Assembly: GCF_947648125.1 (NCBI RefSeq)
Contig: NZ_CANSMR010000002.1
Span: forward strand, 124,001 to 188,000
DNA length: 64,000 nt
Direction of reading: 5' to 3'
DNA from: an uncultured Bradyrhizobium sp.
GTDB taxonomy: Bacteria; Pseudomonadota; Alphaproteobacteria; Rhizobiales; Xanthobacteraceae
Part shown: positions 28,635 through 44,557 of the stretch, one piece after another
How positions within the stretch are numbered: position 1 is the first letter of the stretch
How the letters are laid out: each line of letters begins with the position of its first letter
Translations under genes and position numbers: made by a program
The notes under the pieces: generated by a model
Seen by the model: only the letters and a program-made list of their open reading frames with translations
What the model was told of the DNA's origin: nothing
Databases searched by the model: none

Positions 28635-28650
28635 ATGGCGCTCCCTAGCG
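28635..28650. repeat. attL core (16 bp)
   Basis: Identical to 44482-44497. The flanking bases on both sides differ, which defines the core exactly. Confidence 0.9.
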
Positions 28651-28821
28651 AACCAGGGCGAATCTAACGAAATCAATACGATAGCGGAAACTTTGGGTGA
28701 AAACCCCGGCATTGACTTGCAAGACGTTCCACCGGCTACGCCCAAACCGCCGATGATCGCGATCATGGCGGAAGATGTAATCGAGCTGCCTGCGTTCCTG
28801 CCGAGGAAGGTTTGCCCGTGA
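28651..28821 (+). pseudogene. Detached 3' end of the element's integrase gene
   Basis: This 56-codon segment (from NQGESNEINTIAETLGEN to PRKVCP, then TGA) is in the same frame, relative to the 16-bp core, as the integrase at 43364. When the element is circular, integrase codons up to ...WRSLA at the core continue straight into it, giving a 434-residue protein. In the integrated state it has no native start. An accidental frame from an ATG at 28573 in the chromosome reads through it. Its stop overlaps the GTG of the next gene (GTGA). Confidence 0.75.
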
Positions 28822-29120
28822 CCGGCAATCCCCTCCCCGCCACCAACCGCCATCCCGCCGATCGTCTCGCCGATATCCGCGCGCAGATCGCCGCACTGAA
28901 GACCGCCGAGGCCGAGCTGCGCCAAGGCTTCATCACCGGCACCTTGCCGCTGATCGGCGACGACTACGTGGTGACGGTCCAGACCCACACCAGCGAGAAG
29001 ATCGACAGCAAGGCGATGCGCACGAATGTTCCGGAGCGCGTGTGGCGGCCGTACGTGGTCGAGAGCGCAGCACCCTACGTGACGGTCAAGCGCAAGGTCT
29101 CGCAGATTCGAGACGGATGA
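28818..29120 (+). CDS. Phage-type hypothetical protein
   Basis: The 100-residue product has a helical N-terminus (DRLADIRAQIAALKTAEAELRQG, with an interrupting break) and a compact beta-rich C-terminus (DDYVVTVQTHTSEKIDSK). The GTG at 28818 overlaps the integrase-tail stop, with AGGAAGG seven bases upstream; a TTG two codons before is the alternative. Coupling suggests it follows the integrase in the episomal form. Its function is unknown. Confidence 0.65.
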   Translation: MTGNPLPATNRHPADRLADIRAQIAALKTAEAELRQGFITGTLPLIGDDYVVTVQTHTSEKIDSKAMRTNVPERVWRPYVVESAAPYVTVKRKVSQIRDG

Positions 29121-29216
29121 CTATCTCTGAAAAGTAGAAAGCCTCTCCGGCGGCGAAACCGGAAGGGCTTGGTGTTCAACGATCTGCCACGATCAACACA
29201 CCGGAGATTCCGACCG

Positions 29217-29312
29217 ATGAGTCACGATGTAGATGGGCGCGCTGGCGCTGAGTGTCAACATCAACAGAGGCCGAGCCCGGCGAAAAAGCGCCCGCTCGTG
29301 ACCTGGCTGTAG
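29217..29312 (+). CDS. Very small hypothetical protein
   Basis: A 31-residue hydrophilic frame, MSHDVDGRAGAECQHQQRP onward, ends ten bases before the next gene. GGAG lies about 11 bases upstream. It may be real but could be a leader. Confidence 0.35.
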   Translation: MSHDVDGRAGAECQHQQRPSPAKKRPLVTWL

Positions 29313-29321
29313 GTGGCACCG

Positions 29322-30152
29322 ATGAGCGCCACCGGCCCCACCATCGACGACATCAACGCCGCCTTCGCCGACGCTGTTCGCGAAGATGCTGAGCGCTGCG
29401 ACATAAAATCCACCTCCTCCGACTTCCCTGTGATCCAGGCGCGTGGCCGGCTCGCCATTGCCCGCAAGGCCTTCGAGCATAGGGGCTGGACCAAGCTGCC
29501 GTTGACCACGCGCGGCATGCGTATCCTCCTCTGCTGCGCTGACCATGCGTGGCTCGCCAATCCAACCAATCCAAGGCAGGGCGTCCGGAACTGGCTGAAG
29601 CGCCACACGCGCCTCTCACCCATTAAAATCGACTTCCTCGTCGAGATTGTCGAGAAGCGCGGCAAGCGCTGGACCAATGATCAATTCGCCACGACGCTGG
29701 AGATCACCGTCCTTGACCGCATGTCCATCAGCGGAGATTTCCGGTTTGTGGGCGCGTCAGACGACGACGACGGCATAGCGCGAGCCGCTATCAATCGCGC
29801 CAAGGATGCTGCGCGGAAGCGCGCCAGCCGGGCTGCGAATAGCACCGGCCGCAAGCCGGGCAGACCCGCGACGCTGAACCTGTCACCGGAAGAGAAGAAG
29901 GCGCGTTCCAATGCGCAGGCCGCTAAGCGTATGCGGAACATGCGAGCGTTACGCAAAACCCCGTCCGAGTTCTTAGAGTCTATTAAGAAATCGGACGCAA
30001 TTAAGCGTAACATCTCGCGTCCGATCGTGGTGCAGGCCATCGAGACCATCAGCACCATCAACCTCGACGGCATCGCCTTCGAGACGTTCGGCATCGTCGC
30101 ACTCCAGCTGAAGCACGGAAACCGCACTATTCGCGAGTGGCGAGCACCGTAA
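29322..30152 (+). CDS. Element-encoded hypothetical protein with AT-hook-like basic region
   Basis: The 276-residue protein is not recognised. Residues ~25-150 look globular. From ~150 it is very basic and helical, with GRKPGRPATL, which resembles an AT-hook (RGRP-type core). AAKRMRNMRALRKTPSEFL follows. A DNA-binding role is therefore likely. It lies directly upstream of the TGTCCC site array, which makes it a candidate array-binding or replication protein. The ATG at 29322 has AGGTGG at good spacing. Confidence 0.7.
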   Translation: MSATGPTIDDINAAFADAVREDAERCDIKSTSSDFPVIQARGRLAIARKAFEHRGWTKLPLTTRGMRILLCCADHAWLANPTNPRQGVRNWLKRHTRLSPIKIDFLVEIVEKRGKRWTNDQFATTLEITVLDRMSISGDFRFVGASDDDDGIARAAINRAKDAARKRASRAANSTGRKPGRPATLNLSPEEKKARSNAQAAKRMRNMRALRKTPSEFLESIKKSDAIKRNISRPIVVQAIETISTINLDGIAFETFGIVALQLKHGNRTIREWRAP

Positions 30153-30193
30153 GAGTCTCAGTGGATGGACGGCCGCGTCCCTGAACTGCGTGA

Positions 30194-30307
30194 TGTCCCA
30201 CAATGTCCCGCCGGAACCCCGTAAATTACAGTGATTCCGACGCAACGGGACATAATGGGACATGGCAGAACGGCCCAAATGTCCCGAAAATGTCCCAGAG
30301 ATGTCCC
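30194..30307. repeat. Array of seven TGTCCC sites
   Basis: TGTCCC occurs at 30194 and 30204 (forward), as GGGACA at 30247 and 30257 (inverted), and again forward at 30280, 30291 and 30302. Spacing inside each group is 10 or 11 bp, one helical turn. This is the layout of iterons or a cooperative operator. Confidence 0.75.
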
Positions 30308-30587
30308 TTTGGACTGTCAGCTGACTCAATATCTGAAAATCGTGTGCAGCTCAGCGGTGACGGCCGATCACGTGGCCGGCCGCCTGCGCGACGCGCTCGC
30401 CAACGGCGTGAACCCATTCAGGGCGGCAATGGTGAACCTTCACGCCTCCGCAGCAGACTTAATCGGCGGAACCCTGCGGAGACCTCACGCCGGGATGGAG
30501 GTGCAACATGCGGAAGCCTCGACCTGTTGCGATGATAACGTCTGTGGCTGTGCTGGGATTGATCGCGAGCAATCCGGCACAGGCTGA
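30279..30587 (+). CDS. Doubtful hypothetical protein
   Basis: A 102-codon frame starts inside the TGTCCC array. It has gene-like codon use in its middle (ADHVAGRLRDALANGVNPF). It overlaps the well-supported secreted-protein gene by 80 bp, so one of the two may be wrong at the end, or this frame may be decayed. Confidence 0.25.
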   Translation: MSRKCPRDVPLDCQLTQYLKIVCSSAVTADHVAGRLRDALANGVNPFRAAMVNLHASAADLIGGTLRRPHAGMEVQHAEASTCCDDNVCGCAGIDREQSGTG

Positions 30588-30870
30588 TCGATTCGACGTT
30601 TGCATGAGTAATTGTACGAAGAGTCAGAACCCCGCTCACGCGGACAGCTGTGATCGTGCTTATGGTGCCTTCGCCATCGATGGTGTTAATCTGGACCTCT
30701 ACTGGCCTTGTGAAGACCAGCTCCGGGACACTTGCCAACGCACCTGTGCACGTTATCTCGACGATCTCGGGCAGCCAAAGCGCGGCGGCAGTTACGGCAA
30801 CCCTCGGCATTGGCAGCGGGAGGTGCTGCCGTCTGATTGGTACAAACCTGGGTGGGGGCCAGGCCGCTAA
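30508..30870 (+). CDS. Small secreted Cys-containing protein
   Basis: The 120-residue product has a signal peptide (MITSVAVLGLIASNPAQA, cleavage before DRFD). The mature domain holds six Cys in CMSNC, SCDRAYG, WPCEDQ and CQRTC, so disulfides are likely. GGAGG precedes the ATG. No family was recognised; an element-encoded envelope or surface protein is one possibility. Confidence 0.65.
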   Translation: MRKPRPVAMITSVAVLGLIASNPAQADRFDVCMSNCTKSQNPAHADSCDRAYGAFAIDGVNLDLYWPCEDQLRDTCQRTCARYLDDLGQPKRGGSYGNPRHWQREVLPSDWYKPGWGPGR

Positions 30871-31037
30871 CCCCGACCCCGCTTTCGGGGCGGCCCGCCT
30901 GCCGATTTGTCCTTACCCTTGCCACGGGTTTTTTGCCACCACGCACATCCGACCCGCGGTTATTTTTCGACCACCATCGAAGTGTGACCGTCCCCTCGTC
31001 TGCTCGACGGTCGACCGGCGCGCCGGGCGTCCGAAGT

Positions 31038-31124
31038 CTAGAGCAAGGCGCCAAACCACAACACGAGCGCGAACAGCACCACCAGGGCGGCGGTAATGAT
31101 CACTTCGCTCGTGGGGATCTTCAT
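31038..31124 (-). CDS. Very small single-span membrane protein
   Basis: A 28-residue frame, MKIPTSEVIITAALVVLFA onward, is one hydrophobic helix. AAGG lies upstream. A longer 90-codon frame on the same strand is possible. Outside this frame, 30871-31324 shows only a weak CCCCG/CGGGG hairpin near 30880. Confidence 0.4.
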   Translation of the reverse strand: MKIPTSEVIITAALVVLFALVLWFGALL

Positions 31125-31324
31125 CGACCCAGCCTTCGCGTAAGGGACGGTGCAGCATATCACGGATAGCGCGAGCGCGGGATCAGGGCGGCTGAATTGC
31201 AGGGCCATACGGAAAACCCCTTTGAATTTGCCGATTGCCGACGCCGTGTTTTCAATGGCTTCCGCGATCTTTATTTCCGTATAGGTAGGCGTATGGTTGG
31301 AGCCATCCAACGGAGGGTTTCACC

Positions 31325-31909
31325 ATGCGGCGCGTCGGCATCTATCTCCGGGTTTCCACCAACGGCCAGACCACCGAGAACCAGCGTCGTGAGCTGGAGG
31401 CCGTCGCCGAGCGCTCCGGCTGGCAGATCGTCCAGGTTTACGAGGATGCCGGGATCAGCGGCGCCAAGGGCCGCGACAAGCGCTCGGCGTTTGACCGCAT
31501 GCTGAGGGATGCCACCGCGCGCAAGATCGACATGATAGCGGCGTGGTCCGTCGACCGCCTCGGCCGCAGTCTGCAAAACCTTGTTGGCTTCCTCGGCGAG
31601 CTACAGGCCGTTGGTTGTCACCTGTACCTGCATCAGCAAGCACTCGACACGACCACGCCATCCGGCCGCGCCATGTTCCAGATGTGCGGCGTGTTCGCCG
31701 AATTCGAGCGCGCCATGATCGTTGAGCGCGTCAATGCCGGGCTTGCAAGGGCCAAGGCGCAGGGCAAGACGCTGGGCCGGAAGCCGGTGAAGCCCGCCGT
31801 TGAGCAGCGCATCCGCGCCCTGCGCGCCGAGGGTATGGGTATCCTCAAGATCGGCAAGACGCTCGGCGTCGGCACCAGTGTCGTACAGCGCGTCGTCGGG
31901 GCCGCCTGA
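31325..31909 (+). CDS. Serine recombinase, resolvase/invertase family
   Basis: The 194-residue protein has the catalytic serine in YLRVSTNGQTTENQ, the SGAKGRDKRSAFDRML arginine region, and DRLGRSLQNLVGFL. A short C-terminal helix-turn-helix (EGMGILKIGKTLGVGTSVVQRV) follows. It is full length for small resolvases. GGAGGG lies upstream. Within the element it may resolve dimers or invert a segment; no obvious res site was identified. Confidence 0.92.
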   Translation: MRRVGIYLRVSTNGQTTENQRRELEAVAERSGWQIVQVYEDAGISGAKGRDKRSAFDRMLRDATARKIDMIAAWSVDRLGRSLQNLVGFLGELQAVGCHLYLHQQALDTTTPSGRAMFQMCGVFAEFERAMIVERVNAGLARAKAQGKTLGRKPVKPAVEQRIRALRAEGMGILKIGKTLGVGTSVVQRVVGAA

Positions 31910-31966
31910 CCACATCCTCACCGTCGACCCCTTCTGCTCCCGTCAAACACGAACAACGAGGTGCTC

Positions 31967-32236
31967 ATGACAGAAAGGCCGCATGTATCCGATGCCGTAA
32001 GGGAGTTACTCGACAGCTTCGCGCACCAGTCGGTCGAGATCGTTGCCACCATCAAGTCAGATGAGTTGCCGCCCATACTTCGCGACATGAAGCGCCGCTA
32101 CAGAAGCCGGATTTGTCAGAACAAGGGCGAGTGGGAAATTCGTATAAGAGGCAGCGATGCAGCAAAAATCCTGACTCTGCTCAGTGTCCTTCCCGGTGCC
32201 TTCGTCTTCGACGGAGAGAAATACCCGCTCCCCTGA
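31967..32236 (+). CDS. Hypothetical protein
   Basis: The 89-residue soluble protein starts MTERPHVSDAVRELLDSF and contains MKRRYRSRICQNKGEWEIRI. GAGGTG precedes the ATG. No family was recognised. Confidence 0.55.
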   Translation: MTERPHVSDAVRELLDSFAHQSVEIVATIKSDELPPILRDMKRRYRSRICQNKGEWEIRIRGSDAAKILTLLSVLPGAFVFDGEKYPLP

Positions 32237-32313
32237 ACGGCCACCGCCATCTCGCGCATGATCGCCGCCTGACGATCTCGATCGCACCAACCGCTCAACA
32301 AGGAGCGCGGCGA

Positions 32314-32640
32314 ATGAAAAGACTGGCTTTCATTTTGATGCTTGTATTTTCGGCGGGCCCGGCAGGAGCGCGCGGCTGCTCGTCCATGTGTCACTTCTTC
32401 GATGCGTGGGCCCTGACTCAGCTCTGTCCGAACCTGATCTTCAACAATGACGGGCGCAGCACCGACAAGGGCTTCGGCGACATGCGAAGCCTCAAGCAAG
32501 CAGCCCTCAAGCTGGACATGAAGGCGATCTCCGAAGCGAGGGATATCTGCCATCCGGCCTGTTTCAAGCTTAAGGGCGACGAGCAAGAGGGTACGCCGTG
32601 CCAGTACCTACAGACGCGTGCCGTCACGCCTGACGAATAG
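32314..32640 (+). CDS. Small secreted hypothetical protein
   Basis: The 108-residue product has a signal peptide (MKRLAFILMLVFSAGPAGA). The mature part has Cys in GCSSMCHFFD, QLCPN, DICHPACF and PCQY, suggesting disulfides. AGGAGCG precedes the ATG. It is the second Cys-rich secreted protein in the element. Confidence 0.6.
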   Translation: MKRLAFILMLVFSAGPAGARGCSSMCHFFDAWALTQLCPNLIFNNDGRSTDKGFGDMRSLKQAALKLDMKAISEARDICHPACFKLKGDEQEGTPCQYLQTRAVTPDE

Positions 32641-32769
32641 TCCGTATCGGGCGCTGCACTCTCGACATCCGCTGACCAACAGTCCACCAAAAAGGCGGAC
32701 AGTGTGTACGCGCCGCCCCGCCAGCCCGCGCGCCGGCCCCGTCCATCGCCTGGCCCGCTCGTCACCCGA

Positions 32770-32907
32770 TCAGGACTGCGGCGCGGCGTCGTGATCCCCA
32801 CCTTGATCACCAACGTGGCGCCTGATGGCGTTACGATCGGTGGCAATGAACATTGCGGCAACCGCCATCGAGACGACGGCAGCGGCGGCAAGCGCGAGAT
32901 CGATCAT
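32770..32907 (-). CDS. Small single-span membrane protein
   Basis: The 45-residue product starts MIDLALAAAAVVSMAVAAMF (one transmembrane helix) and has a polar C-terminus. GGAGGG lies six bases upstream, which strongly supports the start. Confidence 0.55.
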   Translation of the reverse strand: MIDLALAAAAVVSMAVAAMFIATDRNAIRRHVGDQGGDHDAAPQS

Positions 32908-33071
32908 TGACGGCCCTCCGGGGAGTCCAGCCCTTGTCGCAATATTGGCGACGGTCATCCCCGTTCAGGCAGTGTCTTTCGTCACTCAGGACGCGCGCCA
33001 GCCTGGCCCATGCGTTGGTGCGATGTCTGCCCCCGACCGGACGACAAGCCGCTGTAGAGGTCTCTGGGTGG

Positions 33072-33182
33072 TTATCCGATCAGTAGCCACGCGATGCTGG
33101 CAAGAAGCGCGATGAACGACACCGCCACAGCGCTGGCTAGGGCAATCTCCACACCGTCGATCCGATCAGAATACAGCCGCAT
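33072..33182 (-). CDS. Small single-span membrane protein
   Basis: The 36-residue product starts MRLYSDRIDGVEIALASAV and ends in a hydrophobic helix (SFIALLASIAWLLIG). GGGAGGG lies eight bases upstream. Confidence 0.55.
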   Translation of the reverse strand: MRLYSDRIDGVEIALASAVAVSFIALLASIAWLLIG

Positions 33183-33356
33183 AGAAATCACCCTCCCAAC
33201 GATAAGGGACCGACTGCTGTAACGGACCGGAAATGTCCTAGTTCCTCGCAGCGGGCCGTCCATCGCGCCGCGTGATCCCGGCCGGGCTCGGCACCGGCCG
33301 AACGGATGGCCTCTCACCGGCCACGGCTGGCCGTTCTGGATGCCATGCGGAACCTA

Positions 33357-33391
33357 CCGGAGGGAACCTCCGGATTTACCAATCTGGTAAA
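33357..33391. promoter_or_regulatory. Two tandem perfect palindromes, likely operators
   Basis: CCGGAGG-GAA-CCTCCGG (33357-33373) and TTTACCA-ATC-TGGTAAA (33375-33391) are both perfect 7-3-7 inverted repeats, one base apart. They lie upstream of the promoter-like sequence and the terminase operon, so a repressor or activator site is likely. As RNA they would also form hairpins. Confidence 0.55.
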
Positions 33392-33415
33392 AATTCAAGT
33401 TCCGTCAATGGCTTA

Positions 33416-33443
33416 TTGATTTTTATGCGACCCGGTATATTTT
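33416..33443 (+). promoter_or_regulatory. Candidate promoter of the packaging operon
   Basis: TTGATT (33416-33421) and TATTTT (33438-33443) are 16 bp apart in a locally AT-rich patch, followed by the leader of the 33568 gene. Confidence 0.4.
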
Positions 33444-33567
33444 AGAACGTATCGCGAACGACTCTTCGCAATCGCCCTCCACCAACGCCGGCCAACATGG
33501 GCGTGCCGCACAGTGAGAACCTGTGCGGCGCTCAGTGAGGCCGTGCGCCCGCACAGCTGAGGCAATC

Positions 33568-33960
33568 ATGCCCGCACCGCTTGGATCACGCCTTCAACCG
33601 CCCATTGGGATCAGGGCGCATGAGCGAGCCGGCCGTAAGCGCGACCGCGCCACAACGTCCGCGCTACGCCGTGCCGTGGCTGGCGATGCCGGCGCCGTCC
33701 TAGCCGTCAAGCAACTGAAGCGCTGGTTGAAGCACGTCGATACGACGCTCGATCTCGCCGCGCTCGAAAGCGTCATGAGGCTCGCCCTACATCGACCTCG
33801 GCATGTCGACGCCGTCCTGGTCGCTCGGCTGGAGCAACTGGTCGGCCGCATCGATCTCCACATCGAGGCCGCGCGGCTACGGATCAAGCCAGACGATTTG
33901 GCCGAGGCACGCATGTTGGCCCGCACGATTGCGGCGCAACTGACCGGGAGTCCCGCATGA
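33568..33960 (+). CDS. Hypothetical protein, first gene of the packaging operon
   Basis: The 130-residue, Arg/Leu-rich helical protein starts MPAPLGSRLQPPIG. Its stop overlaps the next ATG (ATGA). Position before a terminase large subunit would fit a small terminase or another packaging accessory, but no motif proves it. Confidence 0.6.
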   Translation: MPAPLGSRLQPPIGIRAHERAGRKRDRATTSALRRAVAGDAGAVLAVKQLKRWLKHVDTTLDLAALESVMRLALHRPRHVDAVLVARLEQLVGRIDLHIEAARLRIKPDDLAEARMLARTIAAQLTGSPA

Positions 33961-34307
33961 CGGATACTGCGACGAAACCGGCGAAGAGTCGCGGCTGGAA
34001 ACGTCATCACGAGCTGAGGGCCGCCGACCGCGCAGCAAAGACCGCCATTGAACAGGGTTTGCTCGACGGATTGGGCCGCGCGCCGACCATGGCAGACCGG
34101 CTTGCCGTCGAGCAAATTGCCAGCCTGACAATCCTGGCTCGCACGCTGGAGCGTCGCGGCAAGATCGTCGCCGCCGGCAAGGTGCGCGATCAGATTGTCC
34201 GCGCTCAACGGACCAACGGCATGAAGCCGGAACCGCCAGCACCGCAAAAGGTCGACCCGCTCGCCGCGATCGAGGCGCACATCGCGCGTCGCCGGGAGAG
34301 CGTCTGA
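33957..34307 (+). CDS. Hypothetical protein, possible small terminase subunit
   Basis: The 116-residue basic helical protein starts MTDTATKPAKSRGWKRHHELRA, with the rest predicted helical (VEQIASLTILARTLERRGKI). Both its ends overlap neighbouring genes (ATGA upstream, TGATG downstream). Direct coupling to the large terminase makes a small terminase role plausible but unproven. Confidence 0.65.
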   Translation: MTDTATKPAKSRGWKRHHELRAADRAAKTAIEQGLLDGLGRAPTMADRLAVEQIASLTILARTLERRGKIVAAGKVRDQIVRAQRTNGMKPEPPAPQKVDPLAAIEAHIARRRESV

Positions 34308-35860
34308 TGCGCAAACTTACTACCATGCGCGAGGCGCTCGCCGATCCGGATGTGCTGGGCCACGCGCTCCCGGGCGACAGCTGGCTGAACTGGCGCATCC
34401 TACTGATTGCCGCCGTGGGCGAGCCGCTGACCGATACCGAGCGCATGATCTGGCGCGAGCTGACCGGCCGCGACCACGAGCCGGATTGCATGGTCGATAT
34501 ATGGCTGGTCATCGCCGGTCGGCGATCTGGCAAATCGCGCGCCATGGCCGTGCTCGGCGTTTATCTTTCGACCCTGGTCGACTGGACCGACACACTGAGC
34601 GTCGGCGAACGCGGGCTTGCGCTGCTCGTCAGCCCGTCGCAGCGCCAGGCGCAAAACGTCTTGAGTTACGCCAAAGGCATCATTGAGGCTAGTTCGCTCT
34701 TGTCCGGAACGATCGAGGGCGAGACTCAATCGTCTCTGACGCTGGCCCGTGGTGTTGATCTCGAGGTTCAGTCCGCTGACTGGCGCCGTGCTCGCGGCTC
34801 GACATGTGTCCTGGTCGGACTCGATGAGGCCGCGTTCCTGTACAGCGGCGAGGACTCCGCCAACTCTGACCGCGAGATCGTCGTCGCGCTGAAACCGGCC
34901 TTGGCTACGACCGGCGGCATCATGATGATAACGTCGTCTCCGTCTGCGATGGAAGGCATCGTTTACGACCTACACAAGCGTCATGCCGGCCCACAGGGCG
35001 ATTCCCGCATGCTGGTCGTGCAGGCGCCGACCAGCACCCTAAATTCGAAACTTCCGCGGGACGTGATCGACCGCGCCTTTGCCGACGACCCGGCTGCAGC
35101 CGAGAGCGAGTATGGCGGCGCATTCCGCCAAAAGGTCGCAGCCTTCCTGCCCCGCGCCGTGGTCGAGGCCGCCGTGGATAAGGGTATCGGTGGTCGCTGC
35201 GTCCGGATCGGACATCGCTACGCCGCCCATGTCGATCCTGCCGGTGGCACCGGCCGCGACTCCATGACGTTGGCGATTGCCCATAAGCTGGTCGATCCGG
35301 CCGGCCGTGAGATCGTGATCGTCGATGCGCTCGCCGAGATTACGCCACCTTTCGACCCCGACGAAGCGGTGGCGATGTTCTGTCAGATTCTCCTCGGGCA
35401 ATGGGGCATTCGGGAAATCACCGTCGACCACTACGGCGCGGCATGGGTGCCGTCCGCGTTTGCCCGCTTTGGTGTTACCGCGACACCCAGTCCGGTCACC
35501 ACGTCAGAAACCTACGTCGAGGCTTTGCCACTCTTCACCAGCCGCCGAATCCGGTTGATCGACCATCAGCGCAGCATCGACCAGCTATGCGGTCTGCGTC
35601 GCAAGGTCGGCTCGGCCGGTCGCGATGCCGTCGACCACGCCTCGAATGGCCATGACGATCTTGCGGCGGCAATCTGTGCCGTTGCGCGGAAGCTGTCGGC
35701 ACCAGAAGGCGGGTGCCACGGCTGGGTTGCCTTCGCCGAGCGCGAGCTGCGCCGCCTGGGCATCGATCCTAACCGAGGCGCGCTCACCGATTACGACACC
35801 ATCCGAGTTGTCCGACATCACGGCGAGCCCGAGTTTGGCTTCAACTTTCCAAAACCATGA
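34307..35860 (+). CDS. Phage terminase large subunit
   Basis: The 517-residue protein has an N-terminal packaging ATPase with Walker A GRRSGKS (residues 71-77), Walker B VLVGLDEAAFL and coupling motif MMITSSPSAMEG. The C-terminal RNase-H-like nuclease has acidic positions in HVDPAGGTGRDSMTLAI, EITVDHYGAAWV and SNGHDDLAAAI. It pumps DNA into proheads, yet no portal gene follows, which is unusual for a complete phage. Confidence 0.88.
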   Translation: MRKLTTMREALADPDVLGHALPGDSWLNWRILLIAAVGEPLTDTERMIWRELTGRDHEPDCMVDIWLVIAGRRSGKSRAMAVLGVYLSTLVDWTDTLSVGERGLALLVSPSQRQAQNVLSYAKGIIEASSLLSGTIEGETQSSLTLARGVDLEVQSADWRRARGSTCVLVGLDEAAFLYSGEDSANSDREIVVALKPALATTGGIMMITSSPSAMEGIVYDLHKRHAGPQGDSRMLVVQAPTSTLNSKLPRDVIDRAFADDPAAAESEYGGAFRQKVAAFLPRAVVEAAVDKGIGGRCVRIGHRYAAHVDPAGGTGRDSMTLAIAHKLVDPAGREIVIVDALAEITPPFDPDEAVAMFCQILLGQWGIREITVDHYGAAWVPSAFARFGVTATPSPVTTSETYVEALPLFTSRRIRLIDHQRSIDQLCGLRRKVGSAGRDAVDHASNGHDDLAAAICAVARKLSAPEGGCHGWVAFAERELRRLGIDPNRGALTDYDTIRVVRHHGEPEFGFNFPKP

Positions 35861-35869
35861 GGGACCACC

Positions 35870-36367: not shown

Positions 36368-36373
36368 CCGGCC

Positions 36374-36601: not shown

Positions 36602-36861
36602 ACCTTCAGCAACTCGCCGGCGCCCTGAACCCGCGCACCGAGCAGCTGCGCGTTTATCAGGATGGCGAGGTCGTGCTGATCGCTGGCACGCTCGGCTACG
36701 TCGACCGCGCTATGACTGTTCACCTTCGTCTTGCCGACCGCGAGACGCTGCGCGCTCTGCGGCTACGCCACCTCATTGCCGGCGATCCGCCTCGACTGCA
36801 GCGCGAGCCCGAACAGGAAGAGATCGGCATGTTGCGCAAACTGATGGGGTTGTCGGCATGA
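36598..36861 (+). CDS. Hypothetical protein
   Basis: The 87-residue protein starts MNLQQLAGALNPRTEQLRVY. Both ends overlap neighbours by four bases, so it is part of one coupled operon. No family was recognised. Confidence 0.6.
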   Translation: MNLQQLAGALNPRTEQLRVYQDGEVVLIAGTLGYVDRAMTVHLRLADRETLRALRLRHLIAGDPPRLQREPEQEEIGMLRKLMGLSA

Positions 36862-37646: not shown

Positions 37647-37658
37647 AGGGAGATCACT

Positions 37659-37973
37659 ATGACCATCCGCTTGCTCAACACAAACAATGTGCCGGCCACC
37701 GGCATCAATCCGCCCGGCAATCCGATGAATGCCAAATCGTATGGAATCGCACCCGGCGGATTCCTCGACGTCGTCGGCGTCGATGAGGCCGCCACCTTGC
37801 TCGGCCAGCGCAACGGGCTCGCCGGCTTCTTCCAAGTCGGCACGTCCGGCCCGGCGACGTCGCGGCCGGTCAACGTGACACCCGGCGCAATCCATATCGA
37901 CACCACGCTGAGCAAGGTCGTCACTTTCGATGGATCGAGCTGGCGTGATCCAGTCACCGGAGCAGTCGTTTAA
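37659..37973 (+). CDS. Hypothetical phage structural-type protein
   Basis: The 104-residue protein starts MTIRLLNTNNVPATGINPPG and ends TFDGSSWRDPVTGAVV, a pattern seen in small virion or fibre-associated proteins. The assignment to a virion is inference. Confidence 0.55.
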   Translation: MTIRLLNTNNVPATGINPPGNPMNAKSYGIAPGGFLDVVGVDEAATLLGQRNGLAGFFQVGTSGPATSRPVNVTPGAIHIDTTLSKVVTFDGSSWRDPVTGAVV

Positions 37974-37990
37974 TCCTAGGAGATAAACCG

Positions 37991-38179
37991 ATGTCCACCC
38001 CAACCGTAGTGATGCAGCCACCGACCGGAACGTTTCCAACCCTGGTCCATCTGCCTGACGGCACCGTCGGCAAGATGCTTCCAGCTGACCCCAACAATCC
38101 GGCGGCGAGTAATCGGTTCGAAATTCCAGCGAGGTTCATTGGCGTGCTGATCGCCGCCGGCTGGACCACCGTGGTCTGA
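37991..38179 (+). CDS. Small hypothetical protein
   Basis: The 62-residue protein starts MSTPTVVMQPPTGTFPTLV and ends FIGVLIAAGWTTVV. It is part of the coupled late operon. No family was recognised. Confidence 0.55.
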   Translation: MSTPTVVMQPPTGTFPTLVHLPDGTVGKMLPADPNNPAASNRFEIPARFIGVLIAAGWTTVV

Positions 38180-38195
38180 AGGAAGGAACGCCAAA

Positions 38196-38537
38196 ATGAA
38201 AGAACTTGTTGAACTGCAGCCGAGCGCGGCCCTGATCGAGCGCGAGAAAAAGAAATATCCCGACATACCATACACGTGCTCGTGGAGCATCACGCCGTCC
38301 CACGGTCTGCATTCGATAACAGGGCTCCTTGACCGCAATATGAGGATCATTGTGGAGCGCGCCAAAGCCGACCGATATCAGGACTGGGACACGGTCAGGA
38401 TTATCATGCAGCCGGAGACGCCAGAAGAGATGGAAGCTGCGGGTTACTCGGCCAGTGCGATTGAATGCAGCGCCAAATGGGATGCCGCATTCGCCACATT
38501 CGAGGCCGCCGCCGAGAAAATCAGGAACGGCACATGA
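38196..38537 (+). CDS. Hypothetical protein
   Basis: The 113-residue acidic protein starts MKELVELQPSAALIEREKKK and has a helical C-terminus (SAKWDAAFATFEAAAEKI). It lies where tail-assembly chaperones lie in tailed phages, two small genes before the tape-measure-like gene. That is position, not similarity. Confidence 0.55.
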   Translation: MKELVELQPSAALIEREKKKYPDIPYTCSWSITPSHGLHSITGLLDRNMRIIVERAKADRYQDWDTVRIIMQPETPEEMEAAGYSASAIECSAKWDAAFATFEAAAEKIRNGT

Positions 38538-38662
38538 CCTTCCATCTCATCTGTGTTCACCCTTTTGGAAAATACACCAAAGGCCAGCGCATCACGGACC
38601 CGGCTGAGGTCGCCGTGTTGCTGACCGATCGGGAGCATCATTTCGTGCGCGTCGCACCATGA
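38534..38662 (+). CDS. Small hypothetical protein
   Basis: The 42-residue frame starts MTFHLICVHPFGKYTKG. It overlaps its upstream and downstream neighbours by four bases each (ATGA), which supports it as a real gene. Confidence 0.6.
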   Translation: MTFHLICVHPFGKYTKGQRITDPAEVAVLLTDREHHFVRVAP

Positions 38663-38895
38663 CGAGACCGCGCGGTTCCTTACCCCGCGCGTCACTTGGG
38701 GCGGCTGGAGCGGTTGTCCCCGACCGCTCGCCGCCTCCTCCTTCTTCTTCGGGCTCCGCCTCGGCGGCGTCCGGCTCGCGATTGCACCGGCGGATGTACC
38801 CGGACCATCGCGAGCAAACCAATACCGCAACAGCTCCTTTGACGGCCAGCGCGCGGGCCGAACAACGGCCATCGCGCGCGCTAATTCAGACGTAG
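38659..38895 (+). CDS. Low-complexity hypothetical frame
   Basis: This 78-codon frame is rich in Pro, Ser, Ala and Arg (SPPPPSSSGSASAASGS). It begins with an ATGA overlap. It may be real, or the spacer before the tape-measure gene may be non-coding. Confidence 0.35.
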   Translation: MTRPRGSLPRASLGAAGAVVPDRSPPPPSSSGSASAASGSRLHRRMYPDHREQTNTATAPLTASARAEQRPSRALIQT

Positions 38896-38913
38896 GGAAA
38901 AGGAGTAGCGACC

Positions 38914-40758
38914 GTGGACGCATATCGGATTGGCATCAGCATTGTCCTGGCCAATGGCGTGTCGCCGGTGCTGCACACCGTGATGACGGACTTGATGGGT
39001 CTGCGCACCAGAATCGGCGACGTGGAGCGTAGTCTCGCAACTTGGAAAGCGCCGCTGCTCGGATTCGCTGCAATCCTTGGCGGCGCCGCGGTGCTCGGCA
39101 CGATCGATAAATTGATCGACAAGAGCAAAGACTTCCAAGACCAGCTGATCAAACTCCAGCGCCTCGGTGGCGGCATGGCCGAGGCCGTCAAGAGCGGTGC
39201 GATCACCGCACAGGCCTTCGATATCTCTCGGCGGGTTCCGATGAGGGTCGAGGATTTGATGAAGATCCCGGGCATGACCTACTCGATCATGGGCGAAGAG
39301 GAAGCAAGAAAGACCTGGGAGCCGTTGGCGAGATTTGCTTGGGTCCTGCAGTCTGATCGTCATTACAACGGCGACACCAACAAGGACTTGCAGGCGCTCA
39401 TCCGCGCCGGCGAGTTGTCAGGCAGGATCACCGACCCAGTCACCAAGCAGATTGATGCCGTGAAGCTGGAGAAGTTCCTCGACCTTGCTGCTCGTGTCAC
39501 CGCTGCGACCCATGGCATGGTCAATGCCCAGTCGATGCTCGGCATGGCCCAGCAAGGTGGCGTCGCATTGCGCGGCCTCAACGATCAGGGCTTCTACACG
39601 ATGGCCATCATGGCTCAGGCGATGGGCGGTCATCGCGCCGGCACCGCCTATCTGTCGCTGTGGCAGCAGATGGCCGGCGGCACCATGATGAAGCGCACCG
39701 CCGAAGGTCTGCAGGAGATGGGCCTGCTTCAGCCCGGCGAATGGTCGACCGAGGGCGGTCATGTCTCGATCTCGAAAGATGCATCAAAGCGGCTGACAAA
39801 CCTGATCGGCAAGGACCCTCTCGAGCTCGCCGCCAACATTCAGAAGCAGTTGGCCGAGCGCGGCGTCACCAACCCACTCGAGCAAATGGACGCGATCATG
39901 CGGCTCACGGGCCGTCAGACCACGCAGCGTTTCACTGCGGAAGAAGTCGCCAACTTCAGCCAGATGATGGCCGAGCGCGGCCGCTTGATGCAGGGTCTCG
40001 GCGCGGAAGGATCATTCGGCCTCATCACCGACAAGAGCGTCACCGCAAACATGCAGGCTCTATCGAATGCCTGGAGCAACCTCCTCACCGCGGTGGCCGG
40101 ACCAAACTCCGATAAGGTGGTCACGGTATTGCAGGCGCTGACTGCAACCTTGAACAGCATGCAGGCTGCGGTGACAAGCGAGACGACGAAGGCGGTCGAG
40201 AGCGTCATCGGCACCATCGCCGCTGATATTGCCAAGGTCGACGAGTTCATCATGAAAGGCCTTGGCTGGATATCCGGCATCACGCCGGTGTTCCGCGCGC
40301 TCGGCGATTTGCCCTGGCAGAAAATCGCCGACGGCGCCGCCAGCGTCAGCGCGGCGATCGGCAATCTCGCCGGTGTGTCGTGGGAACGGATCGTCGCGAT
40401 CTTCGACGGCATCCGAAACGCGATCGCGTCATTCATCGATCGCCTCGGCGGCATTCTCGGCAGGTTTGGCAACCACGGACAGCCCGGTGTCGATATCGAA
40501 GGTGCCCCAAAGAGTCCGACTCGCTTTGAGGGCGGCTCGGACATGCAGCGCGGCAGATTCATCCCGGCGCAGTTCAATCCCGGCACCAAGCAGCTGGTGC
40601 CGATCGTCCTGCATAGTTCGCTCAATATGGATGGCGAAAAGTTGACACAGATGATCATCGACAAGATCGACGATATGACGACTTCCTCAACCGGCGCCGC
40701 CGCAGCGGATGGAATGAGCCGCTACGCTGGCGGGGATCACCATTGGGATGACACCTGA
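38914..40758 (+). CDS. Tape-measure-like protein
   Basis: The 614-residue protein is long, mostly helical and repeatedly amphipathic. It has hydrophobic patches (PLLGFAAILGGAAVLGTI near 50, and WISGITPVFRALGDLPW near 450) and Gly/Ala-rich helices, the usual look of short tail tape-measure proteins. The GTG start has AAGGAG upstream. In siphophages such a protein sets tail length and contacts the host membrane. No tail tube or chaperone gene is recognisable around it, so the role is inferred from composition and position. Confidence 0.65.
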   Translation: MDAYRIGISIVLANGVSPVLHTVMTDLMGLRTRIGDVERSLATWKAPLLGFAAILGGAAVLGTIDKLIDKSKDFQDQLIKLQRLGGGMAEAVKSGAITAQAFDISRRVPMRVEDLMKIPGMTYSIMGEEEARKTWEPLARFAWVLQSDRHYNGDTNKDLQALIRAGELSGRITDPVTKQIDAVKLEKFLDLAARVTAATHGMVNAQSMLGMAQQGGVALRGLNDQGFYTMAIMAQAMGGHRAGTAYLSLWQQMAGGTMMKRTAEGLQEMGLLQPGEWSTEGGHVSISKDASKRLTNLIGKDPLELAANIQKQLAERGVTNPLEQMDAIMRLTGRQTTQRFTAEEVANFSQMMAERGRLMQGLGAEGSFGLITDKSVTANMQALSNAWSNLLTAVAGPNSDKVVTVLQALTATLNSMQAAVTSETTKAVESVIGTIAADIAKVDEFIMKGLGWISGITPVFRALGDLPWQKIADGAASVSAAIGNLAGVSWERIVAIFDGIRNAIASFIDRLGGILGRFGNHGQPGVDIEGAPKSPTRFEGGSDMQRGRFIPAQFNPGTKQLVPIVLHSSLNMDGEKLTQMIIDKIDDMTTSSTGAAAADGMSRYAGGDHHWDDT

Positions 40759-41056
40759 CATGTTGACAGAAAATGAAAACAAGGTCGTCAAGACCATGCT
40801 CGCCGTGATGACGGAAAAGCTCGGCGGTACGCCACGAAGGCCGCCACCAACCGAAATTGCGCACTGCTTCGCGCTGGCGTGTGAACGCTGCGACTTCATT
40901 GCAACCGAGGAGTCGGCCAACCGAATACTGCAGGCAGTTGCGGCCCAGCTGGTCGACCTAACGGCCACAGTCGACCGTTTGAAGGCTCGGCGCAGAGGAG
41001 AGGTGCACGCGAAGAAACCGGCCGAAAAGCTGGCCGCTGGAGAGAGCGTGCCGTGA
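40748..41056 (+). CDS. Hypothetical protein
   Basis: The 102-residue helical protein starts MTPDMLTENENKVVKTMLA and has a basic C-terminus (RLKARRRGEVHAKKPAEKL). It overlaps the tape-measure-like gene by 11 bp and is the last gene of the rightward operon. Confidence 0.6.
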   Translation: MTPDMLTENENKVVKTMLAVMTEKLGGTPRRPPPTEIAHCFALACERCDFIATEESANRILQAVAAQLVDLTATVDRLKARRRGEVHAKKPAEKLAAGESVP

Positions 41057-41131
41057 GACCTTCAAGGCGTCTGCTTCCAAATGGCGGCCATGAGGTACAC
41101 CGGACCTTGCAGGCCCCGGATACCCGGCCCT

Positions 41132-41506
41132 CTATTCGAGACGATACTTCCTGCCGTTCGTGTTTGGGTCGGTGTTGTCGCTCGAGGAGAACATCAGAAT
41201 GGGCGTCGTATCGCCTGCGTTGATATAGACTTTGTACAGTCCATTTCCCTTTTCGATGATGTCCGGAAGATTGCTATCCGATGCGCCAAGGGGTTTGTCG
41301 TCCTCGTAGAGGCGAGCTTCACTCATGCGAGCAATCGGGTATTTGACGACCTTCAGATAGGCATACCCAAAGTATGGGATGAAAGGCCCGCGAAGGTTTC
41401 TGTCGATTTGGGAAGGGGGAATGAAGTAAAGGAATACGCTTGATGCAAAGGCGAAGATAGTCGAGCCGATCACTATCCGCGTCTCAAACGAAAGCTTACG
41501 CAGCAT
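41132..41506 (-). CDS. Membrane-anchored hypothetical protein
   Basis: The 124-residue protein has one N-terminal transmembrane helix (IVIGSTIFAFASSVFLYFI) and a likely extracytoplasmic beta-rich domain. The ATG overlaps the upstream gene by 11 bp, suggesting coupling. It could act in exclusion or lysis; nothing proves this. Confidence 0.55.
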   Translation of the reverse strand: MLRKLSFETRIVIGSTIFAFASSVFLYFIPPSQIDRNLRGPFIPYFGYAYLKVVKYPIARMSEARLYEDDKPLGASDSNLPDIIEKGNGLYKVYINAGDTTPILMFSSSDNTDPNTNGRKYRLE

Positions 41507-41678
41507 CTGTGTGCGATTTTTCTCTCTTTTCGATGATGCGCTGGCCGCCATTAAATAGCTTGTAGGCATCTTCTTGGCCTACATCTCGACCATCTCGAAA
41601 TCCGATCCGGTATGCGAAGATGGCGCATATGGGTAGTGAAAGGACAAGAATACCACCAACGATCATCTGCGCTAGCAT
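41496..41678 (-). CDS. Small single-span membrane protein
   Basis: The 60-residue protein starts MLAQMIVGGILVLSLPICAIF, followed by a charged cytoplasmic tail (RIGFRDGRDVGQEDAYK). It overlaps the next gene. It has a holin-like size, but only one helix is seen. Confidence 0.5.
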   Translation of the reverse strand: MLAQMIVGGILVLSLPICAIFAYRIGFRDGRDVGQEDAYKLFNGGQRIIEKREKSHTDAA

Positions 41679-41698
41679 TTTTAACGCCAGGGTTATAG

Positions 41699-41941
41699 CT
41701 ACCTGAGTTCTTTAGCAGATTCTGGGGGCAAAGCACACAGGATCTCCTGATATTGCACACCCTCGATCAGCGCCAGGATAGTCCAAGCATACTGAGGGGT
41801 TGGGACTTTCCCCGCACACCACCTCCAAACCTGCACTCGGTGGACGCCGCACAAATCGGCAAAATCCATCGGGGTAAGATGCAGTTTCATCATTGCGGAT
41901 TTCAGGTGAAGGCTCGATTTGCCTTTCTGAGACGAGTTCAA
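41699..41941 (-). CDS. Cro/CI-like helix-turn-helix protein
   Basis: The 80-residue protein has a helix-turn-helix (LTPMDFADLCGVHRVQVWRW, then CAGKVPTP) like small XRE/YdaS regulators. It is transcribed opposite to the packaging operon, as lysogeny regulators often are. The start is uncertain: TTG at 41941, or ATG at 41893 or 41890. Confidence 0.7.
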   Translation of the reverse strand: MNSSQKGKSSLHLKSAMMKLHLTPMDFADLCGVHRVQVWRWCAGKVPTPQYAWTILALIEGVQYQEILCALPPESAKELR

Positions 41942-42144
41942 GCGAAGAGGCCTTTCCCGGCTTGGGTCATTCTCACAAACGTACCGTTTTCGTGGTACTC
42001 GAGCCAGTCCTGATCCTTTGCGTATTGTAGTCCAGCCGAGCCGCTGGCTGATTGTCCAGCCGCAAATTTGAGCGCACCGGCGGCGACGGCTCGCTGGCCG
42101 GCATGCCTTCCACGGCGCACATCATGATGACGATGTAGGCGCAC
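41938..42144 (-). pseudogene. Possible remnant or small gene upstream of the HTH gene
   Basis: A 68-codon GTG frame ends KDQDWLEYHENGTFVRMTQAG-like sequence, which looks like the C-terminus of a longer helical protein. The N-terminal half is His/Arg-rich and unconvincing. Its stop overlaps the TTG of the HTH gene. Confidence 0.35.
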
Positions 42145-42342
42145 CGAATTTCACCAGATTGATGCATTCTGGTTTTCGGAATTGACGTTTTTCCATTTTG
42201 GCGCAAGGCTCCCGTTTGGGAGACCAATCCATGAAGTCAAGCGCGTCGGTTTTCGCAGAACCGCCGCGACACATGATCAGGTGCCGGCGCACGCGCCGAC
42301 GCCAACGATTTGGCACGTTCTCAAAAATGATTGGATCTCACC

Positions 42343-42762
42343 ATGAGAAAAACTACCCACCGCACCAGCAACACCGACGACGCCGCTCTATTCGCCCTGC
42401 TCGGCCAGCATGCTGCGGCACGTCTTGGCTGTCACAGGGCTGCACGTCGCGCCGACCGTTGCCGGGACCTCGGCGATCTCGACGGGATGCACACCCACGG
42501 CGCGGAGGCGGACGCCTTGGTGCGACAGATCGTCGAGCTAGAGCCGCGCATCGCCGCCGCCAAGGCCCACACGTCCGAGGGCTACGACGCCAAACGCAAA
42601 ATCATTGAGAAGATCGATTCCGATGATCCCGAATTCCCGATCTATATTTACCTGTTGGGCGCCGACGCCGAGCGTGCAGGCATTGCCGTTCTGCCAAGCT
42701 TCCTGACCAAGCGCCTGACTGCCGAGGCGCTGCGCACATACACCGAGCACGCCGCCGCCTAA
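42343..42762 (+). CDS. Hypothetical protein
   Basis: The 139-residue protein starts MRKTTHRTSNTDDAALFALL and is predicted helical; its middle reads EADALVRQIVELEPRIAAAK. The ribosome-binding site is weak, and a TTG four codons upstream is an alternative. It is the first gene of the right-end rightward set, and a terminator follows. Confidence 0.6.
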   Translation: MRKTTHRTSNTDDAALFALLGQHAAARLGCHRAARRADRCRDLGDLDGMHTHGAEADALVRQIVELEPRIAAAKAHTSEGYDAKRKIIEKIDSDDPEFPIYIYLLGADAERAGIAVLPSFLTKRLTAEALRTYTEHAAA

Positions 42763-42794
42763 GCCGCCAGCACCACCATCAACCCGACACACAG

Positions 42795-42818
42795 AGGCCG
42801 CCTTCGGGCGGCCTGTTC
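42795..42818 (+). terminator. Hairpin terminator
   Basis: AGGCCGCC-TTCG-GGCGGCCT is a perfect stem with a stable tetraloop, followed by GTTCGTT. The T-tract is weak. Confidence 0.6.
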
Positions 42819-42949
42819 GTTGCGGGTATGAGGAACCTCACATCACGTTGATGCAGCCATTTTGGCAGTGTCGCGGCGCTTGCGGGTGCCAGCTTGGCGC
42901 GGGAGCATTCTCATGGAGTCGCGCCTGACGCTTATGGAGATCATCAACA

Positions 42950-43123
42950 ATGGAAGAAGTCAGATTGAACGTGCGCATCTCGAAAGGGCTGCGCGACCAG
43001 TTGGAATTTGAGGCCGCGCGCAATTACCGGTCTCTCAATGGGCAGATCGCCTACTCGCTGCGCAAGTCAGTCCGCCGCGATATCGCTCTGCGCGGGCCAG
43101 ATGCTCACAAGACGAGCGACTGA
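42950..43123 (+). CDS. Arc-like ribbon-helix-helix protein
   Basis: The 57-residue protein starts MEEVRLNVRISKGLRDQLEF and continues ARNYRSLNGQIAYSLRKSV. This is the beta-strand plus two-helix pattern of Arc/MetJ-type DNA-binding proteins. It lies just before the excisionase-like and integrase genes, so control of excision is plausible. Confidence 0.75.
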   Translation: MEEVRLNVRISKGLRDQLEFEAARNYRSLNGQIAYSLRKSVRRDIALRGPDAHKTSD

Positions 43124-43124
43124 A

Positions 43125-43373
43125 GTGCCCAAGCAGGCCGCCCTTCCTCCTACCCTGCCGCCGCGCCTGATCGGGCGGGATGCAGCGGCGGCCTATGTCT
43201 GCGTCTCGCCCGGCACCTTCGACAAGATGCAGGTGGATGGCCGGATGCCGCCGCCTCGGGTACTGGTGGATGGCCGGTTTGCGTGGGATGTCCGGGAACT
43301 TGATTCGGCGGTAGACTTGCTACCCCACCGTGGCGAGGAGGAGACGATCGCCGCAGACACCGGATGGACATGA
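43125..43373 (+). CDS. AlpA/excisionase-like DNA-binding protein
   Basis: The 82-residue GTG-started protein holds a winged-helix DNA-binding motif (RLIGRDAAAAYVCVSPGTFDK, then MPPPRVLVDGRFAWDVRELD). This is the pattern of AlpA/Xis-like proteins next to phage integrases. It ends by overlapping the integrase start (the ATGA alternative start at 43370). Confidence 0.75.
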   Translation: MPKQAALPPTLPPRLIGRDAAAAYVCVSPGTFDKMQVDGRMPPPRVLVDGRFAWDVRELDSAVDLLPHRGEEETIAADTGWT

Positions 43374-44539
43374 TGCCCCGCAAGCTGCCGCCGCACGTCG
43401 AGCGCAACCGAGTCAAAGGCAAAAACTACTTCTCCTTCCGGATCGGCAAGGGACCGCGCATCCGGCTTCCCGATGATCCGACAACGCAGGAATTCCGGGA
43501 CGCCTACGCCGCAGCGATGGCCGGTGACACCAAGGAAAGGCCGAGTCCGAAGAAAGATAAGCCGGGCACGATCGGCGCCCTGGTGACGTCCTACAAGGCC
43601 AGCGCGGCCTATACCGGGCTCGGCGATGGCAGCAAGGCCGGCTACACGTCCCGCCTAGAGCAGATCAGGAAAGACCACGGCCACCGCGCGGTGGCTGGTC
43701 TGACACAGGATCGTATCCAAGAATTCATCCTAGATCCGCTGCTGAAGAAGAAACACAAGGGTGCCGCACTCGATACACTGAAGAAACTGCGCATCCTGAT
43801 CCGTCACGCGATCGCAAAGAAGTGGCTGAAGGCCGACGCATCCATCGGCATCAGTCGGCCGCAAGGCAAAGAGATCAGGGCGTGGACCGACGCCGAGATG
43901 GCCGCATTCGAAACGCGCTGGCCTATCGGCACAAAGCAGCGCACGGCCTATGCGCTGATGCTGAACATGGGCACAGCCCGCATCGACACCCACACCATCA
44001 CGTGGTCGCAGGTCGACAACGGCGCCTGTTATCGCCGCCGCAAGACCGGCGTCGCGGTCGACATGGCAGTGAGTGAGGATCTGCAGAGGGCCCTCGCCGC
44101 GATGCCACGCAAGGGCGATTACGTGCTACCGACCGAGTGGGGCAAGACGTTCACGGTCGACGGTTTCTCAGGCTTCATGCGCGATGCGATCTCGGCCGCC
44201 GGCATCAAGGATCTGACCTGTCGGCCTCATGGTTTGCGCAAGACGCTCGGCCGCATGCTGGCGGACGCCGGATGTTCCGCGCATGACATCATGGCGGCGC
44301 TCGGCCACAAGACCCTAGCTGAGGCGGAGCGCTACACCCGCGAGGCTGATCGGCGACGCGGCGGCAAGCGTGCTGTTGCCAGCCTCAACGAACACAGAAA
44401 GAGCAAGATTCCCCAAACCCCTCTTTTGCGTTTGGGGAAAATCGAAAAAAGTGAAGGAAAAACAACGCCGAGCCATGCGCAATGGCGCTCCCTAGCGGAA
44501 TCGAACCGCTCTCTCCACCGTGAAAGGGTGGCGTCCTAA
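43364..44539 (+). CDS. int: Tyrosine recombinase (integrase), integrated form
   Basis: The 391-residue protein has a core-binding domain and a catalytic domain. The catalytic residues are in MGTARIDTHTITW (first Arg region), RRRKTG (Lys), RPHGLRKTLG (His-x-x-Arg) and LGHKTLAEAERYTREADR (His and nucleophile Tyr). It reads through attR into the tRNA-Glu gene on the opposite strand. The last 13 residues (ESNRSLHRERVAS) are therefore host tRNA sequence. In the circular form the same frame continues for 56 other residues now at 28651-28821. The start is ATG 43364 or 43370. Confidence 0.93.
   Translation: MDMMPRKLPPHVERNRVKGKNYFSFRIGKGPRIRLPDDPTTQEFRDAYAAAMAGDTKERPSPKKDKPGTIGALVTSYKASAAYTGLGDGSKAGYTSRLEQIRKDHGHRAVAGLTQDRIQEFILDPLLKKKHKGAALDTLKKLRILIRHAIAKKWLKADASIGISRPQGKEIRAWTDAEMAAFETRWPIGTKQRTAYALMLNMGTARIDTHTITWSQVDNGACYRRRKTGVAVDMAVSEDLQRALAAMPRKGDYVLPTEWGKTFTVDGFSGFMRDAISAAGIKDLTCRPHGLRKTLGRMLADAGCSAHDIMAALGHKTLAEAERYTREADRRRGGKRAVASLNEHRKSKIPQTPLLRLGKIEKSEGKTTPSHAQWRSLAESNRSLHRERVAS
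44482..44497. repeat. attR core (16 bp)
   Basis: Identical to 28635-28650. All but its first base lie in the 3' end of tRNA-Glu (CCA end plus acceptor and T-arm bases). Confidence 0.9.
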
Positions 44540-44557
44540 CCGATAGACGAAGGGAGC
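44483..44557 (-). tRNA. tRNA-Glu (UUC)
   Basis: On the minus strand GCTCCCT pairs with AGGGAGC (acceptor stem). The anticodon loop CTTTCAC holds TTC, the T arm is GGTTCGATTCC, and an encoded CCA ends at 44483-44485. The gene is intact because the element restored its 3' end. It overlaps the last 57 bp of the integrase frame. Confidence 0.97.

Follow-up and report, generated by a model that had tools for sequence, protein, structure and literature searches.

A Bradyrhizobium integrase gene that reads through its own attachment site, probably after loss of a stop codon

Introduction

An attachment site that lies inside the reading frame of its own integrase raises the question of whether integration, by exchanging the C-terminus of the enzyme, also regulates it. 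The question is posed here by a 15.9-kb phage-derived element in the DNA of an uncultured Bradyrhizobium sp. (assembly GCF_947648125.1). The stretch analysed, referred to as the window, comprises 64,000 nucleotides (contig NZ_CANSMR010000002.1, positions 124,001 to 188,000) and carries the element between two copies of a 16-bp core. A preliminary description of the window had proposed a built-in change of integrase activity or stability upon integration. Comparison with related integrases points elsewhere: the C-terminal swap is probably the incidental outcome of a lost stop codon.

Reading frames at the two ends of the element

The cores, the integrase gene (int), its tRNA target and the open reading frames (ORFs) beside the distal core are as follows.

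28635..28650, plus strand: attachment core, distal side, the displaced 3′ end of the tRNA (from the sequence and empty-site comparison)
44482..44497, plus strand: attachment core, integrase side (from the sequence)
43364..44539, plus strand: tyrosine integrase, 391 codons when integrated, reading via the core into antisense tRNA-Glu (Pfam, PHROG and catalytic residues)
44483..44557, minus strand: intact tRNA-Glu, anticodon ttc, the integration target (ARAGORN)
28651..28821, plus strand: 56-codon frame, the predicted integrase tail in the circle; relative to the arm, its frame is that of the attP-crossing ORF of relatives (ORF reading)
28818..29120, plus strand: next ORF, with a GTG start overlapping the TGA of the tail as GTGA (no confident family in Pfam or PHROG)

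The core, ATGGCGCTCCCTAGCG, is present in these two exact copies; a scan of the 64 kb that allowed as many as 2 mismatches found no third, and shuffled sequences contained it 0.10 times on average and never twice. The layout is that of the tRNA-targeted islands covered by Islander, with an intact tRNA, a displaced 3′ tRNA fragment and the integrase between them, the difference being that core identity here is confined to the tRNA 3′ end and amounts to only 16 bp. The Islander filter is described as permitting integrases that extend across attP (PMC4383910). In other Bradyrhizobium genomes the core lies within an uninterrupted tRNA-Glu. In G098 an exact 16-bp core follows 86 bp after the end of the homologous left flank, and about 1.45 kb of other DNA separates flank from core in G239 and G036 (G numbers denote genomes of the genus, L numbers integrase or left-end loci of relatives).

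Within the integrase frame the core spans codons 373-378, codon 378 ending at 44497, and in the integrated state codons 379-391 (13 codons) are contributed by antisense tRNA-Glu. At 28635 the distal core keeps this phase, and past it the frame stays open for another 56 codons, beginning at 28651 and closed by the TGA at 28819-28821. In the excised circle, which is predicted from the two cores and the frames, the gene would reach 378+56 = 434 codons by frame arithmetic. The preliminary description had read the ends in the same way, and the position and phase of both cores, the 13 antisense residues and the arithmetic of the 434-codon form with its GTGA overlap are confirmed, the circle itself being a prediction. 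Its further statement, that integration both swaps the C-terminus and separates int from the downstream ORF, has formal support from the frames, and the separation may be the more important half of that interpretation. Searches for the unintegrated form, by the pattern used for an attP junction, gave no match in genome contigs and none in the Bradyrhizobium genomes, that of the window included (0/265).

Most related integrases stop before the core

If the swap were a conserved device, the overlap of gene and core would be expected to recur among relatives. The codon at issue is the following.

44471..44473, plus strand: codon 370, AGC, at the position of the integrase stop TGA in the nearest relatives L005-L007 (alignment)

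Removal of 22 duplicates, and of 18 rows that were broken or partial, reduced the 95 integrase rows to 55 unique full-length integrases, the window included. A recognisable tRNA-Glu core is present in 37/55; the remaining 18/55 have none, and each ends at a stop codon. Among the 37 with a Glu core, 31 stop 4-78 nt upstream of it and six read into it (the window, L015, L025, L027, L028 and L168); without the window, the stop precedes the core in 31/36 relatives. These include the three nearest, L005, L006 and L007 (77-80% identity), which carry TGA where the window has AGC and show no length difference from it up to the core. Among loci from named genomes, Bradyrhizobium accounts for 21 of 37. 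Three circle-type junctions in viral contigs also all stop before the core: L118, a circular contig with a 127-bp terminal repeat and both arms, L176, a partial integrase, and L165, which has a variant core.

On the 37-row tree the reading-in label requires 5 changes, 4 of them forced by well-supported branches, whereas shuffled labels average 5.7; reading-in is scattered by this measure. The overrun would appear to be a scattered, derived loss of the stop codon and not a conserved property of the family. The overrun of L015 arises through a frameshift; L027 and L028 stop 7 and 16 residues past WRSLG, where another element end follows; and in the genome of L025 the left arm (L097, on another contig) closes the integrase frame after 1 codon. 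Among the 18 excluded broken or partial rows, reading into the core is seen in L144 and L152, and the end of L154 resembles antisense tRNA.

These counts bear directly on the proposal of a built-in switch, by which integration would regulate the integrase through a difference in activity or stability between the forms of 391 and 434 residues, as is reported for phage Mx8. The C-terminal swap that it requires is real in the sequence. Against the proposal stand the 31/36 relatives without overrun, L005-L007 among them, the three circle-type junctions and the other reading-in cases (L027 and L028, and L025 via L097), in which there is no comparable tail. The preliminary description had itself named relatives of this kind, with an integrase ending ahead of the core, as grounds for refuting it.

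Spacing of predicted arm sites nearly fixes the frame at the core

The sites flanking the core, and the overlap of some of them with int, indicate how an overrun could arise.

44412..44417, plus strand: right arm site CCCAAA within integrase codons (same spacing in 25/27 relatives with the core)
44431..44436, plus strand: right arm site TTTGGG within integrase codons (52-53 nt before the core in 26/27 relatives)
28671..28683, plus strand: site resembling that of integration host factor (IHF), 1 mismatch to the general consensus WATCAANNNNTTR
28692..28697, plus strand: left arm site TTTGGG (conserved pattern)
28741..28746, plus strand: left arm site CCCAAA (conserved pattern)

On the right side, the relatives counted are those having the core near the int end; in 25 of the 26 with TTTGGG, CCCAAA lies 19 bases upstream of it, and the exceptions are L012, which lacks both sites, and L033, which has TTTGGG alone. 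On the left side, a pattern of core, 38-46 bases, TTTGGG, 40-46 bases and CCCAAA occurs in 28/265 Bradyrhizobium genomes, and the reversed pattern, used as a control, in 0/265. The two spacers are exactly 42 and 43 in 39/43 distinct left arms; those of the window are 43 and 43. Scored against the same consensus with at most 1 mismatch, an IHF-like site lies between core and arm site in 16/30 left arms versus 4/648 control blocks. With conserved inverted sites at constant distances on either side of the core, and an IHF-like site shown on the left only, the attP is a candidate for the lambda type. Given the left-arm pattern, its spacing and the IHF-like site, positions 28651-28746, more than half of the 56-codon tail, look like an attP arm. 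Compared in 14 pairs, the three codon positions of the left arm differ at 114, 120 and 123 of 420 sites each, with no clear bias among them.

The nearly constant distance from arm site to core leaves the integrase frame hardly any freedom where it meets the core, and an in-frame overrun for that reason needs the loss of the stop alone. Matching frames on the integrase side were rejected as evidence of design, being expected where the spacing sets the frame. The 56-residue tail was also rejected as a known protein module: it has no confident family, tblastn found no relatives in viral contigs or phages, and its conserved positions coincide with the arm sites.

The most likely course of events can be put together from these observations. 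A lambda-type tyrosine integrase would have inserted the element into the tRNA-Glu of Bradyrhizobium, using an attP made up of the core between arm sites at which proteins presumably bind, with the right arm encoded in the last part of int and the left arm directly past the distal core. The int of relatives usually ends a few codons ahead of the core; that of the window would have lost this stop, and recombination would then extend the frame by 13 antisense-tRNA codons in the integrated state or by 56 codons, most of them left-arm sequence, in the circle. What the sequence shows directly is the reading frames, the conservation of the arms and the stops of the relatives. Overlap of an integrase with its own attachment site would arise easily in this way, the right arm being already within int and the frame nearly fixed; one lost stop codon suffices, which makes this a plausible route to integrases of the Mx8 type.

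The enzyme and its exchanged tail

Tyrosine recombinases have the catalytic residues R, K, H, R, H and Y, and the set is complete in the window integrase (R206, K227, H289, R292, H315 and Y324). The protein matches PF00589 with an E-value of 3.2e-13 and 50.3 bits (cut-off 27.1) and the PHROG integrase profile with an E-value of 4e-32. All catalytic residues precede the core, Tyr324 lying 54 residues upstream of the core end. A structure model built from a 30-row alignment has a mean predicted local distance difference test score (pLDDT) of 80.8 and a predicted template modelling score (pTM) of 0.58; residues 355-391 fall below a pLDDT of 50, and the swapped C-terminal part would on this model lie in a disordered tail. 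As only the modelled-disordered tail is altered, far beyond the catalytic tyrosine, the swap is expected to leave the enzyme largely or wholly unaffected and is best regarded as a probable side effect of stop loss. The ratio of nonsynonymous to synonymous substitution rates (dN/dS) of the int body against seven relatives is 0.09-0.21, which argues that the integrase is kept as an enzyme.

The built-in switch of the preliminary description has little room here, given that the exchanged segment falls within the modelled-disordered tail and that the greater part of the 56 codons looks like attP-arm DNA. Taken with the stops of the relatives, these points leave it very unlikely.

A different explanation would make the element a relic, a decayed prophage that no longer excises, whose overrun reflects relaxed constraint on the int end. 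In keeping with this, no portal or major capsid match was found among 20 window ORFs scanned against PHROGs and one more against Pfam, which is only part of the ORFs; the branch of the window integrase measures 0.23 compared with 0.02-0.18 for the nine nearest rows, the more distant L018 having 0.28; and another overrun, that of L015, is due to frameshift. The dN/dS values, the intact catalytic residues and the presence of both arms speak against decay, however, and satellites can be without capsid genes. Such a history is conceivable, if doubtful.

The loss of a stop codon has its own difficulties, and three points weigh against an incidental swap. A degradation or interaction signal may be present in either tail despite the low model confidence. 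Reading-in, seen as it is in 6/37 integrases, is evidently tolerated or occasionally useful. The 56-codon tail, finally, may carry meaning, because its frame tends to be open in relatives and because of its GTGA overlap with the next ORF.

Comparison with known systems

The integrase of phage Mx8, IntP, is called IntX after integration. In this phage attP is located inside int, and integration is described as creating a new int 3′ end and altering the specificity of the enzyme, which is not inactivated (PMC6070905); Mx8 is also named in the Islander paper (PMC4383910). The window is similar in having the core inside the integrase frame, a different C-terminus in each state (that of the circle by prediction) and an enzyme that is kept. 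It differs in that the Mx8 system was studied experimentally, whereas here the overlap is missing from most relatives, a stop has been lost and a tail modelled as disordered is the only part swapped. Retention of the overlap across the relatives of the integrase, taken as a mark of the Mx8 type by a criterion set for this analysis, was not found.

The suicidal archaeal integrases of the SSV type, for which Phage_integr_3 (PF16795) is given as the defining domain, are described as encoded by a gene split into N-terminal and catalytic C-terminal pieces (PMC8371274). The resemblance suggested in the preliminary description extends to the target site inside the integrase gene; the catalytic domain of the window integrase stays whole, with the core after Tyr324, so that nothing catalytic is separated. 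The protein has no match to PF16795, PF00589 alone being found at E-values up to 0.1. A split integrase of the SSV type was rejected on account of the intact catalytic domain, and Mx8 is the closer precedent.

The likeness also drawn to integration-dependent switches of mycobacteriophages holds in part. In phage BPs, known for integration-dependent immunity, attP is reported to lie in the repressor ORF, and integration to change the C-terminus and remove a degradation tag (PMC4557955). The window shares an attP inside an ORF and a C-terminus altered on integration. The attP is not in a repressor gene, as it is there, but in int and the left-end frame.

A state-dependent int promoter is described for ICEKp1 (PMC13023037). 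In the window, a promoter scan around both element ends found no promoter-like site, and a terminator scan of both ends found only three minus-strand sites within int, a count near the shuffle mean.

A possible short gene across attP

The stops of the relatives have a further property. In 31/34 integrases that end in TGA ahead of the core the base preceding this stop is A or G (ATGA or GTGA), compared with 65/110 long ORFs with the same stop taken as background, which are unannotated (binomial 4e-5); for A alone the difference (16/34 vs 39/110) is not significant (P 0.11). In most relatives a frame starting in the integrase stop crosses the core, and at paired ends this coupled frame remains open for at least 50 codons beyond the core in 14/17 cases, as against 3/34 for the other two frames. 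Each of the 17 pairs comes from a single contig with both ends in the same orientation, or from a junction contig. Ends lying on separate contigs (G130, G249, G166 and G090), those with broken integrases (G092, G220 and G253) and G100, which has no core beside int, were excluded. Because pairs and rows are related and no correction was made for it, the P values are too low by an uncertain margin; the tests themselves were devised post hoc.

These patterns would be explained if attP lay inside a short gene, ORF2, that starts in the int stop, crosses the core and the left arm and leads to the left-end genes. The circle would then hold a translationally coupled operon of int, ORF2 and left-end genes that integration cuts, and in the window a lost stop and one extra left-arm base would have fused int with ORF2. 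The chances of this are only slightly short of even. It does not exclude the loss of a stop codon, with which it is compatible, and would tell what the tail is.

Several comparisons favour ORF2. L118, the circular contig, has another distance between stop and core, and its open frame is shifted accordingly; the gene order there is int, short ORF, DNA primase and helicase-like ATPase, each overlapping the next at its end. On the far side of the arm, two groups show conservation of the frame as protein, L088/L094/L112 (proportion of synonymous differences, pS, 0.71-0.82; of nonsynonymous differences, pN, 0.21-0.29) and L036/L102 (pS 0.34, pN 0.13). In three pairs the coupled frame is closed, and two of these, L024 and L033, have no overlapping ATG or GTG. 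The third, L176, has the overlap and yet ends after 12 codons, while L013 and L014 are open without an overlapping ATG or GTG. Constraint beyond the arm is weaker in L181/L182 and in L101 paired with L036 or L102, and three ORF2s tried gave no family match. Within the arm, the codon positions show no clear bias, as noted above, and conservation of an ORF judged from stop counts alone was rejected: 4 stops were observed where column shuffles gave 7.4, a deficit attributed to column composition. Frame agreement at the paired ends was used in its place. The left-end genes, moreover, could begin past the arm.

For this alphaproteobacterial integrase family as a whole, it is tentatively suggested, with somewhat less confidence, that attP lies in a short gene beginning in the integrase stop and running via the core to left-end genes, which are replication genes in one circular contig; excision would assemble this gene and couple translation of int to the left-end genes, integration would cut it, and in the window int would be fused to it. 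If such an ORF is real, excision would assemble an operon from int to the left-end genes, a simple state-dependent switch. Literature searches on ORFs spanning attP and on integrase, tRNA-Glu and Bradyrhizobium yielded no such case among the matches listed, the latter topic leading to work on symbiosis ICEs. Of the present findings, the attP-crossing ORF most merits further work.

Gene content of the element and observations on relatives

Two further genes of the element were assigned.

43008..43373, plus strand: small DNA-binding or excisionase-like protein, overlapping the integrase start (phrog_597, E 1e-8; phrog_66, excisionase, E 2.7e-5)
34307..35860, plus strand: terminase large subunit, cargo of phage origin (phrog_2, E 7e-20)

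Between the cores (28651-44481) the element carries, besides this terminase, a serine resolvase and genes that weakly match tape-measure and virion proteins; one window ORF has a weak virion-structural match (E 0.0016). This content would suit either a decayed prophage or a satellite. A related element at L048 (in G143) has in common with it a tape-measure gene (88% identity over 120 residues, 46% over another stretch) and a terminase (37%), and its own integrase overruns through a frameshift. L118 (1-11396) is an 11.3-kb circular IMG/VR contig in which a small ORF, int, the short ORF, the primase and the helicase-like ATPase extend across an intact attP; it looks like a small satellite-type element.

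The left arm is present in nine genomes in which no integrase exceeded the search threshold (G020, G085, G110, G153, G174, G178, G217, G234 and G251); relics, or other integrases sharing the arms, are candidate readings. A variant core, GGCGCTCCCTACGG, is found in L133, L136, L161, L164 and L165 and apparently belongs to another tRNA target. In the contig of L123, labelled Chloroflexota, the integrase agrees in every one of its last 150 residues with that of a Bradyrhizobium metagenome-assembled genome with a similar isolate name, and the label is possibly a binning error. In ten relatives (L008, L010, L011, L012, L014, L017, L018, L019, L024 and L026) the int-side core is followed by a partial tRNA-Glu and then by unrelated DNA, as expected of tandem arrays in which different islands occupy one tRNA-Glu.

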